From an uncultured Bacteroidales bacterium (GTDB lineage Bacteria; Bacteroidota; Bacteroidia; Bacteroidales; Muribaculaceae): 64,000 nucleotides of DNA. This document shows positions 8,852 to 35,731 of the stretch, in pieces (positions within the stretch are counted from its first letter, which is position 1; each line of letters opens with the position of its first letter). The translations under genes and the position numbers were made by a program. The notes under the pieces are model-generated. The model had not been told where the DNA came from. It ran no database searches and worked only from the letters and a program-made list of their open reading frames with translations. Location of the stretch: positions 21,073 to 85,072 of the forward strand of contig CACYQB010000016.1 of NCBI GenBank assembly GCA_902776435.1, in the 5' to 3' direction.

Positions 8852-11800
8852 TTACTTATTGACCTTGGTAACCGAACGGGTTCCGTCGCTGTAAGTGGTC
8901 ACTATGATGTTCACGCCAGTGGCAGGCTGAGAAAGCTGCTGTCCCGAAAGGTCGAAGTAGTCAACCCTCGTCACTTGCTTGCTGGTGGTGAACTCATCCA
9001 CGGCGGTCATGTTGTTTACACCGATGGTGAAGGGTGCAAAATGAACGCATCCGCCATCAGGAGTAACGAACTCAATATCGCTTGCGGTAATGTCGCCGGT
9101 TACAGTTGTAGCTGCGGTCACGTCAAATGTCAGTAATGTGCCCTCACTGTTGGCAATGGCAGCAAGCTGGGGTGAATAGCTCAGTACTCGGGTATTACCG
9201 TTTTGCAGCATGTTGGCATCTAAGCAGTGGGCACTAGCGCGGTCGGTCAAACTGAAGCCGCTTGCCGTCAAGCCCTCAGGCAGACTGAGGTCAAACTGGA
9301 AGGCTGTGTAATCCAAGGCATTGTCCAGGGCGATGCTTACTCGGCGGGTCTCTCCGGGCTTCAGTTGGATGTTGTCGCCACTCAGTCGGTCATTGTTGCT
9401 GCGCATGTCGGGCTGCCGTTGTGGTCCGTTCATCATGGGCTTATCCATGATAATGTGCATGATCAGGACGATGTCGCTGGCGGTGATGCTGTTGTCGGCA
9501 TTGACATCGGCGGCCTCGAAATCAAAGGGTTCTGGATTCATATCGAGGATGTATCTTGCCGTGGTTACGATGTCGCTCACCGTTACAGCCTTGCTGCAAT
9601 TGGCATCGCCTAGTAGGTAACTCAACACATGCACGTAGGCCGAATCATCAAGAACGGTCAGGTCAAGGGGATCAGGCGTCGTGAGCACAATGTTGCGCAA
9701 CGTGATGGGATAGTCACCCTGAGCATCTTCAGCAACCTTGACGGTCAGGTAGAACAGGTCTCCCTCGTTTCCGCTAATGGGTTCCCCATTAGAAGTGTAG
9801 CACAGCACGCGCACACCGCCGCTGGATACGTCATTGCTCATGAGGACGGTGTTGAGCGGCAAGCGATCTGAAGGCTCAATGAGGTATTCATCATCTTCCT
9901 GTACCAGTTCCATCCCGTCGGGTAAGAAAATGTCAGCCTGCACTGCGGTGATGTCATCGATGTTGGTCATCGAAATGGGGATGATGATGGTATCGCCATG
10001 CAGTGCCGTCATGTCCTCTACCGACAAATAGTTCTGGGTCTCGAAACCGACAATTGTTTTGAAATAACACCAACCATAAGAACTTTGATAGGCTTCAAGT
10101 GACTCCTTGGGGACGTATAGCGTCGAATTTTGGTAAACCGAATACGAGAAAGTTTCGTAGTAGGCTCGAGGCGGCGTTGGCGCAAAGCAAATCACTTTAG
10201 GCGCAACGATACTCGGGAATGTGTTGTCGCCAATCCACGTGATGCCACTGGGAATAACCAGGCTGCTGAGCGGACATCCCTTGAACGCATTGTGCGAAAT
10301 GTAAGTGAGAGATTCGGGGAGGTTTACCTGAGTCAGATGGTTGCACCCTTCAAAGGCATAGTTGCCGATATTTGTGACCGTGTTGGGCAGCGTGATTGCA
10401 ACCAATGAGCTGAAACCATTGAAGGCGCGGCTGGCAATGCCTTTAGTGCCTTCTCTCAACACGATGCTGGTTCCTTCGGGCATTTCGCCTTTATACTTAT
10501 AGGCAACATTGGCGGCATAGATTAAACCGTCGGGCTGCAATCTCTCCCAAGCTGTGCCATATAAAGCATAATACCCGATGGACTCGAGGGACTCAGGAAA
10601 GACGATGTTGGCCAGTGCCGTACAACTCTGAAATGCTTTTTCGCTGAGAGAGGTGACTGATTCAGGGATGACGATACTTGTCAATCCAGTACAATCCATG
10701 AACACGCAATAGCCGACCTCCGTTAGCGAGTTGGATAAGGTGACGTTGGCCAAACGGGGGCAATTGTGAAATGCATAGCTGCCGATGTAGTTGACTGAGT
10801 TGGGAATAACGATGCTGGTTATCCCGTCACAGAATTCAAACGCCCTTTCGCCGATGTAGGTGACGGTGTTGGGAATACTGATGCTCACCAATCCATCGTC
10901 GCCAAAGAACGCATAGGTGGCAATACACGTCGTGCCCTCTCTCAAGACGATGCTAGTACCTGCCGGCATCGTGCCCTTGTAATCATAGGCAGTCGTTCCT
11001 GCATAGATGAGGCCATCGGGCTGATTCATATACCAAGCGGTGTTGCTAAACGCATTATAGCCAACGGTTGTTACTGAACCGGGTATGGTGATGTCGGCCA
11101 ACGCAGTGCAGCCCATGAAGGCAGAACCACCGATTGAAGTGACTGATTCGGGAATGACGATGCTTGTCAATGCCGAGCAACCGTAGAATGCACCGGAACT
11201 GATATCGGTAAGACCATCTGGAAGTGTGATTTCAGTCAGTCCAGTGCAGCCATATAACGCATAATAGCCGATTGTAGTGACAGTATTGGGTATATTGATT
11301 TCAGTCAGTCCAGTGCAGCCATAAAACGCATAATCGGAGATGGCTGTGACCGAGTTGGGGATGACGGTGTTCTTGCAACCGAGCACGAGAGCATTTGTTG
11401 CCGTCTTGATGATTGCATTGCAACCCTCGCGAGAATCAAAGATCGAGTTGCCCTCGGCAACCGTAATACTCGTCAGTCCACTGCAATTGGTAAACGAATA
11501 GCTTATGGAAGTAACCGAGTGAGGAATGGTAAGGGTTGACAGCAACTTGCATCCACTGAATGAATTATAGCCTATCGAAGTGATTGTATTAGGTAAGGTG
11601 AGGCTCGTCATGCCGGAACAACCTTGAAATGCATAATCGGCGATAGCAGTCATGGAGCTGGGAATGGAGACTGACCTTAATGCAGTGCAGCCATTGAAAG
11701 CATATTGGCCGATGCTGGTGATATTGTTGGGCAGGTTGATGCTTGTCATTGCAGTGCAGCCACGGAAAGCGCTTTGACCAATCGTAGCAGTTGAGGTAGG

Positions 11801-12442
11801 CAAGGTGACACTGGTCAGAGACGTGCAACCTGAAAACGCACTCTCATTGATGGTGGTGAGATTACGGGGCAACGTGATGGATGACAGCGAAGTGCAGCCT
11901 TTGAACATAGAATTAGAGAGGGTAGTGAGAGAACTAGGCATTGAAACACTCGTCAGAGCAGTGCAATTCTCAAACAAATAGTATCCAACGCTTGTTAAAG
12001 AGCTGGGCAGGCTGACGCTGGTCAATCCACTGCAGCCTTGGAAGACCGCAAAGCCGAGTGAGGTAACGTTTCGAGGAACGGTGATTTTGGTGAGTCCACT
12101 GCAATTAGTGAAGGCATAGGAATTAATGATGGTGACTGTACTGGGAATGGTCACACTGGTCAATTCAGTACAGCCACTGAAGGCAGAATAGTCGATTGAG
12201 GTGACCATGTAGGTCGTACCGTTATAGGTGACCGACTCAGGAATGGTCACGGTATCAGTGTATTCACCGACATAGGTAGTAGCATATTGTCCACGGTAAG
12301 TCACGCTGACTTCTGAGCCAGTGATCTTGTAGTAGATGCCATCGACCTCAAAGTCATGTGCCACCACTGTTGTGGCAACTAACAGAGCAAGTTGGAATAG
12401 GACTGCTCGCAGCAAGAAGGAGAGGTTTGTCTTGTGTATCAT
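8852..12442 (-). CDS. Giant secreted BspA-like LRR protein with cohesin-like and dockerin-like modules
   Basis: A 1,196-residue exported protein. I start it at MIHKTNLSFLL (12442) because the -7 box at 12476-12483 overlaps the longer frame. After the signal peptide comes a long array of BspA/TpLRR-type repeats (about residues 45-795, units like LTSVTIPSTVTIINSYAFTN). A cohesin-like beta domain (about 805-940) follows, then a two-motif dockerin-like module (about 945-1004, GDANCSKAVTVSDIVTT and ADVNADNSITASDIVLI), and a second cohesin-like domain (about 1023-1140). The C-terminal tail VDYFDLSGQQLSQPATGVNI resembles a sorting signal. Such LRR proteins often bind host or matrix ligands; the role here is unknown. 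It is alone on its transcript. Confidence 0.85.
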   Translation of the reverse strand: MIHKTNLSFLLRAVLFQLALLVATTVVAHDFEVDGIYYKITGSEVSVTYRGQYATTYVGEYTDTVTIPESVTYNGTTYMVTSIDYSAFSGCTELTSVTIPSTVTIINSYAFTNCSGLTKITVPRNVTSLGFAVFQGCSGLTSVSLPSSLTSVGYYLFENCTALTSVSMPSSLTTLSNSMFKGCTSLSSITLPRNLTTINESAFSGCTSLTSVTLPTSTATIGQSAFRGCTAMTSINLPNNITSIGQYAFNGCTALRSVSIPSSMTAIADYAFQGCSGMTSLTLPNTITSIGYNSFSGCKLLSTLTIPHSVTSISYSFTNCSGLTSITVAEGNSIFDSREGCNAIIKTATNALVLGCKNTVIPNSVTAISDYAFYGCTGLTEINIPNTVTTIGYYALYGCTGLTEITLPDGLTDISSGAFYGCSALTSIVIPESVTSIGGSAFMGCTALADITIPGSVTTVGYNAFSNTAWYMNQPDGLIYAGTTAYDYKGTMPAGTSIVLREGTTCIATYAFFGDDGLVSISIPNTVTYIGERAFEFCDGITSIVIPNSVNYIGSYAFHNCPRLANVTLSNSLTEVGYCVFMDCTGLTSIVIPESVTSLSEKAFQSCTALANIVFPESLESIGYYALYGTAWERLQPDGLIYAANVAYKYKGEMPEGTSIVLREGTKGIASRAFNGFSSLVAITLPNTVTNIGNYAFEGCNHLTQVNLPESLTYISHNAFKGCPLSSLVIPSGITWIGDNTFPSIVAPKVICFAPTPPRAYYETFSYSVYQNSTLYVPKESLEAYQSSYGWCYFKTIVGFETQNYLSVEDMTALHGDTIIIPISMTNIDDITAVQADIFLPDGMELVQEDDEYLIEPSDRLPLNTVLMSNDVSSGGVRVLCYTSNGEPISGNEGDLFYLTVKVAEDAQGDYPITLRNIVLTTPDPLDLTVLDDSAYVHVLSYLLGDANCSKAVTVSDIVTTARYILDMNPEPFDFEAADVNADNSITASDIVLIMHIIMDKPMMNGPQRQPDMRSNNDRLSGDNIQLKPGETRRVSIALDNALDYTAFQFDLSLPEGLTASGFSLTDRASAHCLDANMLQNGNTRVLSYSPQLAAIANSEGTLLTFDVTAATTVTGDITASDIEFVTPDGGCVHFAPFTIGVNNMTAVDEFTTSKQVTRVDYFDLSGQQLSQPATGVNIIVTTYSDGTRSVTKVNK
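10470..11045 (-). repeat. Internal duplication within the LRR array
   Basis: Two segments about 480 bp apart encode near-identical non-LRR inserts. Both have TAW followed by QPDGLIYA, then a YKG(T/E)MP(A/E)GTSIVLREGT stretch, and each is followed by a further LRR run. The unit is about 160 residues, so the array seems to have grown by duplication of a block and not of single repeats. Confidence 0.7.
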
Positions 12443-12475
12443 AAGCGTTAAACGATTAAAAGTTAAGAATTGCTG

Positions 12476-12483
12476 CAAATATA
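12476..12483 (-). promoter_or_regulatory. -7 promoter box of the LRR protein gene
   Basis: Minus-strand TATATTTG, followed by GC, is a good -7 box 34 nt upstream of the ATG at 12442. It rules out the longer reading frame that starts at 12478. Confidence 0.65.
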
Positions 12484-21111: not shown

Positions 21112-23340
21112 CTAGGGGCGCCTCTCACTCATGACAAACTCCAGCGTTCCGCCCGCCATGATGTCTTGATGCTTGAGTTTGAAACCTTGTAGCCGCTTGC
21201 CGTTGAGGCGGATTTCCTTGACGAATATACCCTTGTCGCCCTTGCGGATGATGGTAAACTCCTTGCCGCCAGCTAAGTGCAGAGTGGCATGCTGGAACAG
21301 TGGCGTGCCGATGACATATTCTGCAGCGCCCGCATTGAAGGGGTAGAAGCCTAATGCCGAGAAAATGTACCACGCCGACATCTGTCCGCAGTCATCATTG
21401 CCAGCATAGCCTGCTGGAGTGGCATTATAGAATTCGGAGCGCACTTGGTTGACCAGTTCTTGAGTGCGCCAAGGGCAATCGGCGAAGTTATAGAAATAGA
21501 CGGTGTGGTGGCTGGGTTCGTTGCCGTGGGCATACTGGCCGATAAACGCCGAGGCGTTGCCGTTAGTCTCACGGTTGACGGAAGTCAGGCTGAAATTCTC
21601 ATCTAATTTTTTCAGAAATGCTTTTTTGCCACCCATAAGTTTGATGAATTGCTCGGGTGCATGAGGCACAAACCACAGGTATTGCCAGGCGTTACCCTCA
21701 ATAAAGCTGTTGTCCTCATAGCTTAGCGGGTCAAATGGCTCTGCCCATTGTCCGTTGTCGTCACGCGCTCTGAAGAACCCCGTTTTTTCATCATACAGGT
21801 TTTTATAGTAAGTCGCCCTTTGGGCAAAGTGATGATAGTCGTCTTGGTATCCCAGGCGCGCGGCAACGGCAGCGACGCACCAGTCGTCAAATGCCTGCTC
21901 CAGTGTGATGGAAACCGAAGATCCTTGCTTGTTGCAGGGCATGTAGCCCAGTTTTTCCCACAGGTCAAACGGCGAGTTGGTGTGTGTCCTTGTGCTACTC
22001 TCGACCATCGCGCGATAGGCTTTCTCGACATTGATGCCGGGCAGGTCGGCGAGAATGGCGTCGGCGATGACCGGGATGGCATGGTTGCCTATCATGCAGT
22101 AGTTCTCTTGTCCCCACAGGTCCCAGATGGGCAGGTAGCCATAGGTGTCGTGATGGCGCACCATGTCGTTCACAAACTGTGCCGCCAGGTCGGGTTTGAG
22201 CAGGAGGTAAAGCGGATGTGCGGCGCGGAAGGTATCCCACAGCGAGAATGTGGAGTGGTAACTCTGACCTTTGGGCATCTGGCGTACCTCATAGTTGGTA
22301 TCCATGTATCGGCCATCGACATCGCTCATGGTGTTAGGTTGCAACAACACGTGGTAAAGTCCGGTATAGAAAATCTGCTTTTGCTCATCTGTGCCGTCAA
22401 CATCGATGCATGACAACTGCCGCTGCCACTCGTCGTGGGCTTGACGGACATATAGGTCAAAATCCCAGCCTGGAGCTTCGGCGGCGAGGTTTCGACGTGC
22501 TCCGTCGATATCGACTGCCGAGAGGGCGACCTTGACTGTCAATTGACTATCACCTACAGAGTCAAACGACAGGGCGCAGCGCAGCGTGCGCCCGTTGATT
22601 ACAGTAGCATCGCCCACTGTGCGAGTACCGTCCATGAGCAGGTGCCCGGTGATGGGACGGGAGAATTCGGCGCGGAAATAGACTTTGCGCAGCTTGGCCC
22701 AACCGGTGATGACACGGTAGCCTTCCACCGTGTGGTCATCGACAAGGCGGAGCTGGGCTTGGATGATGTCATAACTGCGGCGCCCACTATAATAGGCCTG
22801 GCCGCGAAAGGTAGAGTGGTCGAGGTCAAGGATGACCTGTTGCGGCTTCCCTTGGGGGAAGGTATAGCGGTGGATGCCCGTACGGGTAGTAGCGCTGAGC
22901 TCTGCTTTTACTCCGCTTTCCTGAAGTACAACCCGATAGTATCCTGGACATGCCGCTTCTTGATCGTGTGAAAAAGTCTGCCCGAAGTTGCCTGTCGCCA
23001 GATACTCTGGAGTGACATCCCAAGTCACTGGCATGAGCGAGACGTCAAACAGGTCAGTACAGCCCGTGCCGCTCAAGTGGGTGTGGGAGATGGCGTAGAT
23101 GCTGTCACGGTTGTAGTCATAGCCTGAGCAGGGATCCCAGGTCACCATCTGTTCGGTGTCTGGACTCACTTGCACCATTCCCTGAGGCATCGTGGCTCCG
23201 GGGAACGTGCTGCCGCTCAAGGCGCCGGTGGAATCGGTCTGCGTGCCGATAAACGGATTGACATATTGGGTGTAATCGGTTGTGGTGGCTTGGAGCAGCA
23301 ATGTACACCACAGGGCTAAGAGTAAGATAGTCTGTTTCAT
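21112..23340 (-). CDS. GH92-family exo-alpha-mannosidase, secreted
   Basis: A 742-residue glycoside hydrolase of family 92, calcium-dependent exo-mannosidases that trim alpha-mannosides from N-glycans and yeast mannan. After the signal peptide (MKQTILLLALWCTLLLQATT) the N-terminal beta-sandwich holds YVNPFIGTQTDS, GSTFPGATMPQGMVQVSPDT and SHTHLSGTGC. The (alpha/alpha)6 catalytic domain shows SFSLWDTFRAAHPLY, AHGNEPSHH (general acid Glu) and NDDCGQMSAWYIFSALGFYP. It is monocistronic here, not in a PUL with SusCD, and has its own -7 box. Linkage specificity cannot be assigned by eye. Confidence 0.93.
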   Translation of the reverse strand: MKQTILLLALWCTLLLQATTTDYTQYVNPFIGTQTDSTGALSGSTFPGATMPQGMVQVSPDTEQMVTWDPCSGYDYNRDSIYAISHTHLSGTGCTDLFDVSLMPVTWDVTPEYLATGNFGQTFSHDQEAACPGYYRVVLQESGVKAELSATTRTGIHRYTFPQGKPQQVILDLDHSTFRGQAYYSGRRSYDIIQAQLRLVDDHTVEGYRVITGWAKLRKVYFRAEFSRPITGHLLMDGTRTVGDATVINGRTLRCALSFDSVGDSQLTVKVALSAVDIDGARRNLAAEAPGWDFDLYVRQAHDEWQRQLSCIDVDGTDEQKQIFYTGLYHVLLQPNTMSDVDGRYMDTNYEVRQMPKGQSYHSTFSLWDTFRAAHPLYLLLKPDLAAQFVNDMVRHHDTYGYLPIWDLWGQENYCMIGNHAIPVIADAILADLPGINVEKAYRAMVESSTRTHTNSPFDLWEKLGYMPCNKQGSSVSITLEQAFDDWCVAAVAARLGYQDDYHHFAQRATYYKNLYDEKTGFFRARDDNGQWAEPFDPLSYEDNSFIEGNAWQYLWFVPHAPEQFIKLMGGKKAFLKKLDENFSLTSVNRETNGNASAFIGQYAHGNEPSHHTVYFYNFADCPWRTQELVNQVRSEFYNATPAGYAGNDDCGQMSAWYIFSALGFYPFNAGAAEYVIGTPLFQHATLHLAGGKEFTIIRKGDKGIFVKEIRLNGKRLQGFKLKHQDIMAGGTLEFVMSERRP

Positions 23341-25091: not shown

Positions 25092-26597
25092 ATGAAAAAA
25101 TTATCTATTTTGATGCTTGTGCTGGCTATGGCATTTCCCATGATTGCCAACAATAGGTTTGAGCGTGGTGACGTTAACCAAGACGGAGTAACGAGCATCA
25201 AAGACGTGACCATCTTGATCGACTATCTGCTGTCAAATGAGTGGCCGGCTCCCTCTGGGCCCGTTCATGAGTTCGTTGATCTGGGCTTGTCTAGCGGTAC
25301 CCTGTGGGCAACATGCAACGTGGGCGCCAATGCGCCCGAGGAATATGGTGACTACTTTGCTTGGGGCGAGACTGTATCCAAAGATACTACCTATACGTGG
25401 AAAACTACCGCATGGGTGTATTATGAGGGTAGTTCTCTTCGCTTCAGCAAGTACAACACCAGCGAACAATATGGTGAAATTGACAACAAAACTGAGTTGG
25501 ATCCTGAAGACGATGCCGCCTATGTCAACTGGGGACCCGAGTGGCGTATTCCGACCGCTGCGCAAGTCAGTGAACTGATTTCTAATCAATGCACTTGGGA
25601 GTGGGTAGAGGTGAACGGCGTGAACTGCCGAAAGATCACCGGTCCTAACGGTAACTACATCATCATGCCTGCAGCAGGGCAGCGCTCGGCAGCTACCACC
25701 AGTAACGTGGGCACAAACGGTAACTATTGGTCGCGCGATCTCTATGTCTCCAATAACACCGTCAATCCTACGAGTGCTTCCAAGTTATACTTTACCAAGA
25801 CGGGGAAGCAAAGAATAAATGGCTCGCGTTACCAAGGTTATTCGGTGCGTCCTGTATATGCTTCACAAGATGTTCCGACCAGTGATTATGAGCGTGGCGA
25901 CGTTAACCAGGATGGCACAACGAGCATCAAAGACGTGACGGTCTTGATCGATTATCTGCTGTCGGGCGTATGGCCCGATCCCGTTCCCGTTGTGGATTAC
26001 GTCGATCTGGGCTTGCCTAACGGCACGCTGTGGGCAACGCACAACGTGGGAGCAAAGAACCCCGAGGAATTAGGTGACTTCTTCGCATGGGGTGAGACTG
26101 CTCCTAAGGCTAACTATGAGTGGGAAGGTACTGCGTGGTTGTATGTAGAGGATGGCAAAAAACGTATTTCCAAGTACAACACCAAGATTGATTATGGTCC
26201 CGTTGACAACAAGATTGAGTTGGATCCTGAAGACGATGCCGCCTATGTTAACATGGGTTCAGAGTGGCGTATGCCGTCCAAGGCTGATATCGATGAATTG
26301 TTGGCGAATTGCACGTGGGAGTGGACTCAGTTGAACGGCGTGAATGGTCAACTGATTACAGGTCCTAACGGTAACACAATGTTCTTGCCTGCCGTTGGTG
26401 AGCGTATGGGAACGAGTATGTTCCATTTGGGTGAGGCCGGCAACTACTGGTCACGCTCGCTCCATGTCCTTAATGAAACCGTTTCCTTCCCGACCGGTGC
26501 ATTTAAGATTTACTTTACTGATAGTGGACTGACGTGGAACACATCTGAACGCTCTTGCGGTTTCCCGGTGCGTGCCGTGCGCATTGTACAGGATTAA
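25092..26597 (+). CDS. Secreted protein with two dockerin-like motifs and two FISUMP domains
   Basis: A 501-residue secreted protein built as a tandem duplication. After the signal peptide (MKKLSILMLVLAMAFPMIAN) a single dockerin-like calcium loop (about 25-48, GDVNQDGVTSIKDVTILIDY) precedes a FISUMP-type domain (about 59-258, VDLGLSSGTLWATCNVGA). A second loop (about 268-290, GDVNQDGTTSIKDVTVLIDY) precedes a second domain (about 303-501, VDLGLPNGTLWATHNVGA). Each dockerin unit has one EF-like loop, not the usual pair. FISUMP was described in Fibrobacter succinogenes and its function is unknown. The gene is alone, with a leader of about 170 nt and a terminator hairpin. Confidence 0.85.
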   Translation: MKKLSILMLVLAMAFPMIANNRFERGDVNQDGVTSIKDVTILIDYLLSNEWPAPSGPVHEFVDLGLSSGTLWATCNVGANAPEEYGDYFAWGETVSKDTTYTWKTTAWVYYEGSSLRFSKYNTSEQYGEIDNKTELDPEDDAAYVNWGPEWRIPTAAQVSELISNQCTWEWVEVNGVNCRKITGPNGNYIIMPAAGQRSAATTSNVGTNGNYWSRDLYVSNNTVNPTSASKLYFTKTGKQRINGSRYQGYSVRPVYASQDVPTSDYERGDVNQDGTTSIKDVTVLIDYLLSGVWPDPVPVVDYVDLGLPNGTLWATHNVGAKNPEELGDFFAWGETAPKANYEWEGTAWLYVEDGKKRISKYNTKIDYGPVDNKIELDPEDDAAYVNMGSEWRMPSKADIDELLANCTWEWTQLNGVNGQLITGPNGNTMFLPAVGERMGTSMFHLGEAGNYWSRSLHVLNETVSFPTGAFKIYFTDSGLTWNTSERSCGFPVRAVRIVQD

Positions 26598-32219: not shown

Positions 32220-33947
32220 ATGAAAACGAGACATATATCTCTATTGTTTTTGCTGTACATGGCGTGTCTGCCGCTGATGGCACACATGACTTATGACGGC
32301 AAGCGTGCTGTGTATGACAAACTGAGCGATACCTATTTGTTGACCTTGCCTGAGTCCACTTTTGGACAGCCCTACAAGGCTGCTGCTGTCATCGATGATA
32401 CCGTATCATGGGTGAGCTTTTCTGGTAAGATGGTGCGTGGTGGAATCGTTGATATCCCGATGGTTAAGGGCGACACGATCTATGAGGTCCTGTATGCCCA
32501 CAATAATCACTTGAGCAAAATAAGAATCCGCCTTACCTTTTTCCCCATCTTGTGCATGGAAGGGACATTTAATGACGAATATGCTCTGGGGCAGGTGTCG
32601 ATGACACTTCCAGAAAACACTTCGACCCAGCATTATCAGGCACGCATTAAGTGGGCAGGAGGTTCCACTACCTATGACTGGATTCACAAACATAATTTCC
32701 ATATCAAGTTTGTGGACGAGAATATGGAGAAGATGGATGTCTCGTTCTTCGGCCTGCGCAATGACAACCACTGGCGCCTGGATGCCGGAATTGTGGATAT
32801 GTTGCGTTTCCGCAACAAGGCCGCTCACGGGCTGTGGGCCGATTTTGGCAACAAGCCGTATTATGCCAACGCTGAACCCAAGGCTAAAACCTATTCCCGT
32901 GGCCATCATGTGGAAATGTTTTTGAATGGTGAGTACATGGGCTTCTTTGACATGACGGAGTTTCTTGACCGCAAACAGATGAAACTCAAGAAGTATGATG
33001 AGTCTCATGGCGTTTTCCGCGGATTGATGTGGAAAGGCAAGGAAGGAACAGAACAGACCTTGTTTTCCTCAACTGCTGAATATGATAACAATGAGGAGCA
33101 TTGGGCTGGCTTTGACCTGATGTATCCTGACTTTGACGACGTTTATCCCACTGACTACAGTGTGCTGGCCAATGCCGTGAAATTTGTCGCCGAGAGTGAT
33201 TCGTTGACTTTCGTACAGCAGGTTGGAGATTATTTTGACCTCCCTGTGCTAGCTGACTATTTTGTGTTCATCAATGTGCTGTTTGCCATTGACAATTCTT
33301 GTAAGAATATCATTTGGGGTTGTTATGACAGTTCCGTCGATAAGAAATTGACGTTGTCCGTTTGGGATCTTGAGGCTACGGTCGGCCAGCACTGGTATAA
33401 CGGTGAGGGTTATTATCACGCCGATGAGATTCAGCCTGAGAATGACCTTGACAAGCCTCAGCGTTTCTGTTTATTATCGCGTAATAAACTGTTCATGCAG
33501 TTGAAGCAGATGCCTGAATTCATGGACCAGGTGCTGTTAAGATACTGGAGATTGCGCCATACTGTACTTGACCCGGACAGTTTGATCAACCGCTATGCTG
33601 CCATCTATGCCAATCTTGAAAAGGCTGGCGCGCTTATCCGTGAGTCGGAACGCTGGAGCGGCGATCGAGACATCTCTGGCCATGACCTTGATTTCGAAAG
33701 TGAGTTTGCATATATGAGTGACTGGATCAGGCGTCGCATCGTTTATCTTGATCACGTGACATTTCTCAATCGTGGAGATGTCAACTGTGATGGTCTGGTG
33801 GACATCAAAGATTTGACAAACTTGATCGATTATTTGCTGTCAGATGATATGACGTTGTTGAGTGAAGCTAATGCGGATATCAATGGCGATTCAAAGGTCA
33901 CCATAAAGGATTTGACGGCAATCATCGATTTGTTACTTGTGTTATAA
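32220..33947 (+). CDS. CotH-family protein with C-terminal dockerin-like module (copy 1)
   Basis: A 575-residue secreted protein. After the signal peptide (MKTRHISLLFLLYMACLPLMA) comes a CotH-type domain (about 110-500). CotH proteins are atypical protein kinases first known from spore coats. Recognisable segments are FRNKAAHGLWADFG, EYMGFFDMTEFLDRKQMKLK, FINVLFAIDNSCKNIIWG and the metal-site region VWDLEATVG. The C terminus (about 518-575) is a two-loop dockerin-like module (GDVNCDGLVDIKDLTNLIDY and ADINGDSKVTIKDLTAIID). Catalytic activity is not proven, and the motif has Glu where copy 2 has Asp. It follows DUF3109 by 4 nt. Confidence 0.85.
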   Translation: MKTRHISLLFLLYMACLPLMAHMTYDGKRAVYDKLSDTYLLTLPESTFGQPYKAAAVIDDTVSWVSFSGKMVRGGIVDIPMVKGDTIYEVLYAHNNHLSKIRIRLTFFPILCMEGTFNDEYALGQVSMTLPENTSTQHYQARIKWAGGSTTYDWIHKHNFHIKFVDENMEKMDVSFFGLRNDNHWRLDAGIVDMLRFRNKAAHGLWADFGNKPYYANAEPKAKTYSRGHHVEMFLNGEYMGFFDMTEFLDRKQMKLKKYDESHGVFRGLMWKGKEGTEQTLFSSTAEYDNNEEHWAGFDLMYPDFDDVYPTDYSVLANAVKFVAESDSLTFVQQVGDYFDLPVLADYFVFINVLFAIDNSCKNIIWGCYDSSVDKKLTLSVWDLEATVGQHWYNGEGYYHADEIQPENDLDKPQRFCLLSRNKLFMQLKQMPEFMDQVLLRYWRLRHTVLDPDSLINRYAAIYANLEKAGALIRESERWSGDRDISGHDLDFESEFAYMSDWIRRRIVYLDHVTFLNRGDVNCDGLVDIKDLTNLIDYLLSDDMTLLSEANADINGDSKVTIKDLTAIIDLLLVL

Positions 33948-33997
33948 TGTGTTTAATCAATCAGATATTAAGGATTAAAGTATAATTTTAAGTGAAC

Positions 33998-35731
33998 ATG
34001 ATTAGGATAAGGTTTTTTTTAATCGTATTGTTGATGTTGTCATCGGCCCATCTGATGAATGCTCAGTTCATCTTGGATGGAAGGCGGCCGTTTTTTGATA
34101 ACCGAACAAAGACCTATCTGCTGCCCGTGCCTGAGGATTACTTTGGCAAGCCTTGCACCCTGAGTTTTGTGCCTGATGATTCTATCTCTTGGGTTTCTCA
34201 GGATGCTTGGTACGTAACCGACAAGATGTATTTCAGAAACCTGAAGAGCGATACTACCTACACTTTCAGCTATTGGGTCTATCCCGTCGGTTATGCCGTG
34301 AAACTGCGTTTTACCTCACTTCCTGTCGTGAAGCTTGTAGGGGATATCGGCGAGGATTATACCCAGGGCGAGTTCTGGATGCAGGTTCCTGAAGACACCA
34401 CAACCCTTCAACTGAATGCTAAGATCAAGTGGGCTGGTTCGTCAACCAACAGGCCATGGTTCAAAAAGCACAATTACCATCTTAAATTCCAGGATGAAAA
34501 TCATGAGAAGATGGAAGTCTCCTTCTATGGCTTGCGTAAGGACAACCACTGGCGCATTGATGGCGGCGTGATTGACTTCTCTAGAGTCCGCAACAAGGTG
34601 TCTCATGAGTTGTGGGCTGACATGGCCCATAAGCCCTACTATGCCGATGTGCAGCCGAATGCAAGATCCTACTGTAGAAGTTTTTTCATTGACCTTTTTG
34701 ATAATCAAAAGTTCAAGGGATTTGTAAACTTGGCTGAGTATATGGACCGCAAACAGATGAAGTTGAAGAAGTATGACGACGCAACGGGCGAGTTCCATGG
34801 CTTGCTCTGGAAAGCTAAGGACGCGTCATGGCAGACCTTGTTTGCCGCCACGGCAGCTTATGATAACACGTCCGACTACTGGTGCGGATTCGAAATGGAA
34901 TATCCCGATTTGGACGATGTGCCACGAACCGATTACCATATCTTGAGCGATGCAATCAGCTTTGTGGTGAAAAGTACCGATACCGAGTTCCGGCAGCATG
35001 TGGGTGAGTTTTTTGACTTGCCTGTGCTCGTGGATTACTATGTGTTCATCAATGTGCTGCTGGCATCCGATAATGTTTGCAAGAACATCATGTGGGCTTG
35101 CTATGATGGCGCGGTGGATAAGAAACTTACCCTTGCGGTGTGGGATCTCGATGCCGTCATGGGGCAGTACTGGAGCAATGATGACGAGTATTACCATGGT
35201 CCTGTTGTAGCACCTGAGAACAATTTGGGCGATGTGTCACGTTTTTCTGACAACCGCTTGTTCAATCGGTTGATGGAGTGGGACGAATTCAGGAACCAGG
35301 TCAACGAGCGCTACTGGCAGTTGCGTCGGGGTGTTCTCAGCCCTGAGCGTCTGATTGGTCGTTTCTCTTCCACATTCGACGATTTGCGTAAACGCGGAGC
35401 GATTTATCGTGAAGAGGATTATTTCAATCACAGCAGTGACCTCTCTGGACGTGAACTCAACTTCGCAAACGAGTTGGAATACCTGAGCGACTGGATTCAG
35501 CGCCGCATCGATTATCTGGACCACAATACGTTTGCGATAGAGGGCGGCTGCGTGATTGGCGACGTCGATGGTGATGGCGAAGTGACGATCAGTGACGTGG
35601 TAGCTATCATAGAAATTCTGTTGGGTAAACAAGTTGATCAAGGAACGCTCTATCGCTCTGATATGGATCAGGATGGTGAAGTCAGGATTTCTGATGTGAA
35701 TACAGTGATTGACTATATTCTTACTCGATAA
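33998..35731 (+). CDS. CotH-family protein with C-terminal dockerin-like module (copy 2)
   Basis: A 577-residue secreted paralog of the preceding gene, started at MIRIRFFLIVLLMLSSAHLM (33998), not the GTG at 33992. It shares FRNL/FRN-type CotH segments (VRNKVSHELWADMAHKPYYA, YMDRKQMKLKKYDD, YYVFINVLLASDNVCKNIMW) and VWDLDAVMG, which keeps the Asp of the metal motif. The C-terminal dockerin-like pair (about 521-577) is GDVDGDGEVTISDVVAIIEI and SDMDQDGEVRISDVNTVID. The 50-nt gap from copy 1 suggests a tandem duplication in one transcript. Confidence 0.85.
   Translation: MIRIRFFLIVLLMLSSAHLMNAQFILDGRRPFFDNRTKTYLLPVPEDYFGKPCTLSFVPDDSISWVSQDAWYVTDKMYFRNLKSDTTYTFSYWVYPVGYAVKLRFTSLPVVKLVGDIGEDYTQGEFWMQVPEDTTTLQLNAKIKWAGSSTNRPWFKKHNYHLKFQDENHEKMEVSFYGLRKDNHWRIDGGVIDFSRVRNKVSHELWADMAHKPYYADVQPNARSYCRSFFIDLFDNQKFKGFVNLAEYMDRKQMKLKKYDDATGEFHGLLWKAKDASWQTLFAATAAYDNTSDYWCGFEMEYPDLDDVPRTDYHILSDAISFVVKSTDTEFRQHVGEFFDLPVLVDYYVFINVLLASDNVCKNIMWACYDGAVDKKLTLAVWDLDAVMGQYWSNDDEYYHGPVVAPENNLGDVSRFSDNRLFNRLMEWDEFRNQVNERYWQLRRGVLSPERLIGRFSSTFDDLRKRGAIYREEDYFNHSSDLSGRELNFANELEYLSDWIQRRIDYLDHNTFAIEGGCVIGDVDGDGEVTISDVVAIIEILLGKQVDQGTLYRSDMDQDGEVRISDVNTVIDYILTR

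Follow-up and report, generated by a model that had tools for sequence, protein, structure and literature searches.

This locus raises the question of what one gene that joins leucine-rich repeats (LRRs), two cohesin-like domains and a dockerin-like domain does in a member of the Bacteroidales. The gene (8852..12442, minus strand, from the open reading frame (ORF) listing and Pfam) lies in a 64,000-nucleotide (nt) stretch of contig CACYQB010000016.1 of an uncultured Bacteroidales bacterium, referred to below as the window. The rumen-type genome to which it belongs (G000; 3.45 Mb, 43 contigs, 95% complete) was analyzed together with relatives from the same family and order. An initial annotation of the window had described these domains as the parts list of a cohesin-dockerin assembly. 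We consider it probable that the protein is a surface receptor of such an assembly in Bacteroidota/Bacteroidales; its binding, the matching of cohesins to dockerins, its surface location and its export are deductions from sequence.

The ORF (8852..12478, minus strand) encodes 1208 amino acids (aa) counted from a TTG codon, and its second methionine, an ATG at 12442, is compatible with a signal peptide on inspection. A regular-expression rule predicts this peptide at 12356..12442, with an approximate end and, by a simple rule, no lipobox. All further modules are likewise on the minus strand. The BspA-type LRR array (10079..12271, limits approximate) is matched by LRR_5 (PF13306) in six stretches with 548 bits, which makes the protein a member of the BspA-type LRR group. 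Cohesin 1 (9626..10033, class coh1) is matched by PF00963 at residues 819-930 with 31.3 bits against a cut-off of 24.1. The internal dockerin (9452..9613) is matched by Dockerin_1 (PF00404) at residues 956-1009 with 30.2 bits against a cut-off of 22.9, and has the two calcium loops and helices of a type I dockerin. Cohesin 2 (9011..9391, class coh2) gave no match in the Pfam search; it can be aligned with cohesin 1 and ten further domains of the same genome, so that all form one family. With the 12-row profile A1 cohesin 1 (G000:C16:30698-31105) scored E 6.6e-48 and cohesin 2 (G000:C16:30083-30463) E 5.1e-46, both by construction, each being itself a row of A1. The protein ends in an unconfirmed sorting-like tail (8855..9001), assigned from a pattern and by-eye likeness to the tails of other ORFs in the genome. 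Thus the LRR array, cohesin 1 and the dockerin of the initial annotation are borne out by Pfam, and cohesin 2 by alignment and the family profile, but its sorting tail stays at the level of resemblance.

The cohesin assignment was examined against solved structures. The 12-row profile matched solved cohesins weakly (best E 0.012). A profile of 86 rows (7 of the 93 nonredundant cohesins were left out of the alignment) gave E-values under 1e-4 (7.4e-6 to 7.5e-5) with seven solved chains, all of them scaffoldin cohesins or NagJ, whose module we take to be a cohesin. The window cohesins therefore belong to the PF00963 family either by the curated cut-off or by homology to solved cohesins. Two residues of the strand that presumably faces the dockerin are widely kept: Q32 in 81 and D34 in 72 of the 86 modules. 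PF00963 itself matched just 23 of the 86 modules at E<=0.1, and this low yield is what could be said for a chance resemblance to EF-hand and immunoglobulin (Ig)-like domains with no assembly behind it. Such a coincidence seems to us very improbable, since curated cut-offs are passed, solved cohesins are matched and the duplicated calcium loops are retained. A match of the two beta domains to other Ig-like families, which would have spoken against the initial annotation, was not seen at the sequence level: other Pfam families matched at most two members each, leaving PF00963 as the sole family to match more than two.

A survey of the genome for further dockerin proteins, which the initial annotation had proposed, returned 153 matches with the PF00404 profile; the 150 that were listed, all above the curated cut-off, give a count of at least 150 dockerins (150 of 281 candidates scored). 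This total is a lower bound, because the listed matches do not include the two half-dockerins encoded at 25092 in the window. The ORFs of 149 were read (the dockerin on contig C36 was left out), three being incomplete at the 5′ end. In 119 of the 149 the match lies at most 11 residues from the ORF end. A signal-peptide-like start was found in 139 of the 149 (133 plain, 6 lipoprotein-like) by a crude rule that accepts any M plus a hydrophobic run within the first third of the ORF; it is not SignalP and is evidently wrong in a few cases, such as L049 and L081. With six lipoprotein-like starts by this rule, the idea that the cargo consists mainly of lipoproteins was rejected.

Pfam was run at E<=1e-4 on 139 of the 149 dockerin proteins, and the results were listed in two sets, each limited to the 25 commonest families (of 42 in one set and 46 in the other). 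Among these, LRR proteins and peptidases lead and glycosidases are few: LRR_5 was found 33 times, peptidase C10 17, DUF285 14 and CotH 8, followed by peptidases M6, S8 and C39-like (5 each), FGE-sulfatase-like domains (at least 6), endonuclease I (at least 4), GHL10 (3), alpha-amylase (at least 3) and GH53 (at least 1). The genome thus holds the many dockerin-bearing enzymes expected of a cellulosome, with at least 150 dockerins, enzymes included. The initial annotation had named CotH-like and FISUMP proteins, and not cellulases, as partners, and mostly non-cellulase partners are supported; the range is wider than the kinases or adhesins it had in mind, taking in C10, M6 and S8 peptidases, endonuclease I, FGE-like domains and many LRR proteins.

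Two further features of the cargo genes were seen. L036 and L037 (G000:C1:78370-112849) hold clusters of adjacent dockerin genes, and several of these genes appear by eye to begin with a C10-like propeptide, which suggests tandem gene amplification. In L092, L086, L129, L126 and L051 the usual order is inverted, the dockerin coming right after the signal peptide and the other domain being C-terminal; in several of them this domain is FGE-like or FISUMP-like by eye.

The same genome has 18 cohesins in 13 proteins at E<=1e-5 with the 12-row profile, which was built from 12 of them, and two further places at E 0.002 and 0.04; the 86-row profile recovers the same 18 and one weak place. Five large proteins, the window protein included, have the order LRR, cohesin 1, dockerin, cohesin 2; their LRRs are confirmed by Pfam in three and were recognized by eye in the rest, and in the 1295-aa member the dockerin is visible in the alignment and not with the dockerin profile. 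Further cohesin proteins are of two kinds, one of about 670-700 aa with the order LRR-dockerin-cohesin, the other small and secreted with a cohesin and a dockerin. With the 12-row profile no protein of this genome has more than two cohesins, so it lacks a multi-cohesin scaffoldin of the cellulosome kind. A tree of the 86 cohesins (137 columns, bootstrap unsettled) largely separates three groups: cohesin 1; cohesin 2 together with the modules of LRR-dockerin-cohesin proteins; and adaptor/scaffoldin modules. The class labels, which we assigned from position in the protein, change 15 times on the tree against a mean of 54 in shuffles. Position in the protein has therefore been conserved to a large extent, which would be expected of classes that differ in their partners.

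The duplicated dockerin surface holds residues critical for species-specific recognition and permits two orientations, according to a review (PMC12484212). From work on clostridial dockerins, we assume positions 10, 11, 17, 18 and 22 to be the recognition positions. In the window's genome 118 dockerins could be registered, and 23 of 149 could not and were left out. Position 10 is I in 114 of the 118 in the first half and 111 in the second, position 17 is I in 116 and 108, and position 18 is D in 108 and 101; positions 4, 7, 15 and 19 vary. In the calcium loops D1 and D12 are present in 118/118, as the register used requires, and D5 in 112 and 97.

Other genomes have other signatures. Here mostly the best-scoring dockerins were used; 37 of 289 domains could not be registered and were left out, and counts refer to C-terminal dockerins with halves pooled. 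Congener G060 has Y17 in 38/40 halves and S or A at position 10 in 37/40; G040 has Y17 in 22/24 and G10 in 19/24; G095 has I17 in 20/20, G10 in 16/20 and N18 in 17/20; and G001 has a signature of its own, with L17 in 11/14 and E18 in 12/14. The information that each position carries about genome identity was estimated from 50 draws of up to eight C-terminal dockerins per genome, in the nine genomes that have five or more. The excess was highest at positions 17 (1.21 bits), 10 (1.18), 14 (1.09) and 9 (0.99), followed by 11 (0.82), 20 (0.72), 18 (0.71) and 22 (0.63), and was at most 0.54 bits at 4, 7, 15 and 19. For the window's genome and some relatives, uniformity within a genome and difference between genomes at the putative recognition positions is the pattern expected of a lock and key.

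Dockerins of adaptors and of the scaffoldin share the cargo signature of their own genome in eight of the nine registered cases with a known cargo set (G000 4/4; G060, G079 and RGIG8059 1/1 each; G040 1/2). We had considered that the scaffoldin dockerin of G060 might be of a non-cargo type, as in Firmicutes; this was rejected, as the cargo sample of G060 has the same signature. The dockerin between cohesin 1 and cohesin 2 differs. It has A17 in at least one half in nine of the 11 registered cases (exceptions G056 and G089; four of 15 could not be registered), and in the window protein position 17 is A in the first half and M in the second, which places it in a non-cargo class. The window protein is therefore not cargo-like, and its cohesins are likely to be sockets.

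An alternative function would be that of an adhesin with a self-contained stalk: cohesin 1, dockerin and cohesin 2 would fold as one unit in which the dockerin is held in cis, and no cargo would be received. Fifteen proteins have the order cohesin-dockerin-cohesin (four in the window's genome, 11 at other loci), and where the spacing was checked cohesin 1 and the dockerin are 1-4 aa apart; A17 recurs in the internal dockerin (the nine of 11 registered cases above) whatever the cargo signature of the genome. Moreover G008, G010, G056 and G089 keep a whole or partial cohesin-dockerin-cohesin unit, yet have none or one dockerin at E<=1e-6. The stalk would, however, leave at least 150 dockerins without a partner, and the presumed dockerin-facing residues are conserved in coh1 too (Q32 in 17/18 modules, D34 in 18/18). 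We regard a stalk as unlikely.

A gene was called receptor-like when its first module begins more than 200 aa from the start, and a neighbor had to be on the same strand within 400 nt; the 39 receptor-like genes came from loci chosen for cohesins or dockerins and are a non-random sample. Twenty-two of them are followed on the same strand by another cohesin gene with a gap of at most 164 nt. In two of these pairs (G060, G109) the neighbor is a second receptor-like gene, and one pair involves the middle gene of a three-gene run (G040). An extra pair in RUG362 (L162) falls outside the rule, its first gene starting with a weak additional cohesin. The number of cohesins in a neighbor is one, two or six, a dockerin may be present or absent, and 20 of the 22 neighbors pass the crude signal-peptide rule. 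The remaining 17 receptor-like genes, the window gene included, have no cohesin neighbor; one of them lies at a contig end.

The second gene of a pair in congener G060 (G060:C11:73479-76238, minus strand; L188:7479-10238) encodes a 919-aa protein in which six cohesins in tandem precede a C-terminal dockerin. Pfam finds its dockerin and none of its cohesins, and proteins of this kind are therefore invisible to PF00963 surveys. One gene, recognized by the motif LDALRTVRYPG in its translation and perhaps encoding an Mrp-type ATPase, is found close to an LRR-dockerin-cohesin gene of about 670 aa in three genomes of the genus (L160, L189, L197); the motif was not found in three other loci checked, which extend less far.

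Most named relatives are metagenome-assembled genomes (MAGs) titled Prevotellaceae, Muribaculaceae or Bacteroidales, many labeled RUG or Rumen; one Symbiothrix and one Flavobacteriales record also occur. With the 12-row profile, cohesins were found in 33 of 119 genomes of the family, including 7/7 of the genus. Dockerins were found in 27 of the 119: all seven genomes of the genus have from 38 to at least 49 matches, and those outside it have at most six except G001. Fuller scoring gave 57 for G095, 44 for G109 and 38 for G079. In the order, 59 of 295 genomes have dockerins at E<=1e-6, nine of them at least eight each, so that other expansions exist. Genomes of other families of the order with at least eight are G121, G165, G211, G192, G295, G386, G312 and G212, and these expansions are independent or older.

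The results of the family searches, the counts over the whole genome, the paired genes and the signatures of the dockerins together support the cohesin-dockerin assembly of the initial annotation, which had not anticipated that the window protein's own dockerin would lack the cargo signature. What the sequence itself shows is which modules occur and how many, which genes are paired, and the classes of signature. A working receptor might function as follows. After export, probably by the type IX secretion system (T9SS), whose SprA is present in 117 of the 119 family genomes and in the window's genome, the tail would retain the protein at the cell surface with the LRR part pointing outwards. Its two cohesins would catch secreted proteins with a calcium-binding dockerin, for example the two CotH proteins of the window, and adaptors, or the scaffoldin in G060, would supply additional sockets. 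The internal dockerin probably serves less as a cargo tag than as a fixed element for structure or for binding a partner, possibly the secreted cohesin protein encoded directly behind about half of the receptor relatives.

Several observations weigh against this reading. Nearly all of the cargo has a signal-peptide-like start alone, which leaves the crossing of the outer membrane unexplained. The tail of the window protein was matched by none of the NCBIfam tail models, TIGR04183 included, at E<=1, and judged by the C-terminal sorting domain (TIGR04183) the protein does not count as type A T9SS cargo; the window's genome has seven matches of this model above cut-off on other proteins. Cohesins are scarce relative to the number of dockerins. 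Behind the window receptor gene there is no cohesin or dockerin ORF, and an adjoining adaptor for it was rejected on this ground. The signatures are not perfect either. Among the congeners, position 10 varies in G017, G079 and G109, and position 17 in G079 and G109 (V 11 and I 5 of 16 in G109; I 8 and T 5 of 14 in G079). Positions 9 and 14, which are not known as recognition positions, are almost as genome-specific as 10 and 17. Since seven G040 dockerins are near-copies of each other, recent copying within a genome could create part of a uniform signature. Genomes of the genus have 7 to 16 TIGR04183 matches and those of the rest of the family from 0 to at least 44, so the genus is not outside the family range; on the same counts a replacement of type IX tails by dockerins in the genus is not supported. 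Finally, G001, which belongs to another genus of the family and is 85% complete, carries 30 dockerins, and even the 86-row profile detects no cohesin in it at E<=0.01. This speaks against a strict pairing, unless G001 has more divergent cohesins or encodes them in the part of the genome that the assembly lacks.

G001 would be easier to understand if the dockerin were a terminal tag for sorting, export or stability that is recognized by a factor different from these cohesins, the cohesins serving a small separate set of partners. The extreme C-terminal placement of most dockerins is also that of a sorting domain. This explanation appears quite unlikely to us: in 12 of 30 longer-tailed ORFs, counted by eye, the dockerin precedes another, non-cohesin domain, and dockerins and cohesins occur together in all seven genomes of the genus drawn.

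The route of the cargo through the outer membrane invites one more proposal. The cohesin-dockerin bond of the genus might itself be the way to the surface, cargo with no more than a signal peptide binding cohesin receptors in the periplasm and being co-exported through the large SprA pore by means of the receptors' type IX signal. One exported receptor would then bring out many different proteins, and the dockerin would be an indirect, exchangeable secretion tag with a key differing between species. We hold this proposal to be distinctly doubtful.

The three other window genes in which the initial annotation saw dockerin loops, all on the plus strand, do have them. Two encode CotH-family proteins with a C-terminal dockerin of the cargo type. 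The first (32220..33947; CotH 113 bits, Dockerin_1 34.3 bits) has its dockerin at 33774-33938, with I10, I17 and D18 read from the sequence of each half. The second (33992..35731; CotH 112 bits, Dockerin_1 35 bits) has it at 35558-35722, with I10 and I17 in each half and position 18 E in the first half and D in the second. The third gene (25092..26597) encodes a secreted protein with two separate half-dockerins at about 25161-25256 and 25890-25997, identified from Dockerin_1 matches in two stretches, the profile and the translation. They are about 210 aa apart; each consists of one calcium loop and a helix, is followed by a repeated domain and carries the cargo signature, and the two might form one dockerin in cis. 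"FISUMP" is the label given to this protein by the initial annotation; Pfam yields merely a sub-threshold Lcl_C match. A GH92 glycosidase (Pfam 574 bits) at window positions 21112-23340 lies close to these dockerin genes and has no Dockerin_1 match.

Known systems offer partial parallels. Ruminococcus flavefaciens FD-1 has 222 dockerin proteins, with 28 LRR and 16 peptidase entries in Table 2 and about half of the dockerins associated with carbohydrate-active enzymes (PMC2930009). Like the present system, the cellulosomes of Firmicutes such as this strain thus combine many secreted dockerin proteins, LRR proteins and peptidases among them, with proteins carrying both cohesin and dockerin and with a scaffoldin gene cluster (PMC2930009). 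Unlike in FD-1, the present organism belongs to another phylum with a different envelope and has a T9SS, its receptors are built on BspA LRRs, its cargo is led by LRR proteins and peptidases, and adaptor/scaffoldin dockerins are mostly of the cargo type. In Ruminococcus albus dockerins also far outnumber cohesins, and one cohesin alone is proposed to hold the enzymes on the cell (PMC6118326), whereas here there are 18 cohesins in 13 proteins and receptor-adaptor gene pairs. The mucinolysome of Limousia is likewise a cohesin-dockerin complex not for cellulose, with peptidases among its dockerin proteins, but its host is Gram-positive (PMC12997984).

The same article stated in 2026 that cellulosome systems were undescribed outside Firmicutes (PMC12997984). 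Dockerins have been noted in proteins of rumen Bacteroidetes, where their functional role was called undefined (PMC7480376), and in some Bacteroidota single-cell genomes and rumen MAGs (PMC10266427, PMC9763041). A 2018 study listed a Bacteroidetes bin (136) with five dockerins and one cohesin entry, counted it with the bins that have two to four cohesins in tandem, and remarked in its discussion that Bacteroidetes too are known as users of the system (PMC6071333). This earlier study weighs against full novelty of the system described here; the pertinent parts of PMC7480376 and PMC6071333 contain no receptors, adaptor gene pairs, signatures or comparable dockerin numbers. Elsewhere, 15 rumen MAGs with multi-cohesin proteins were reported, nine of them near R. 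flavefaciens (PMC5830445). In the openly licensed literature in PubMed Central, as represented by the text portions consulted, no description of comparable receptors, adaptor gene pairs or signatures was found.

The present case provides the genes of receptors, adaptors and cargo as well as a scaffoldin with six cohesins in a related genome of the genus. It also explains why most cohesins of this kind escape surveys based on Pfam Cohesin. New and perhaps orthogonal cohesin-dockerin pairs are on offer as well. If the assembly is real, modular extracellular assembly would reach a phylum with an outer membrane and a cargo rich in peptidases.

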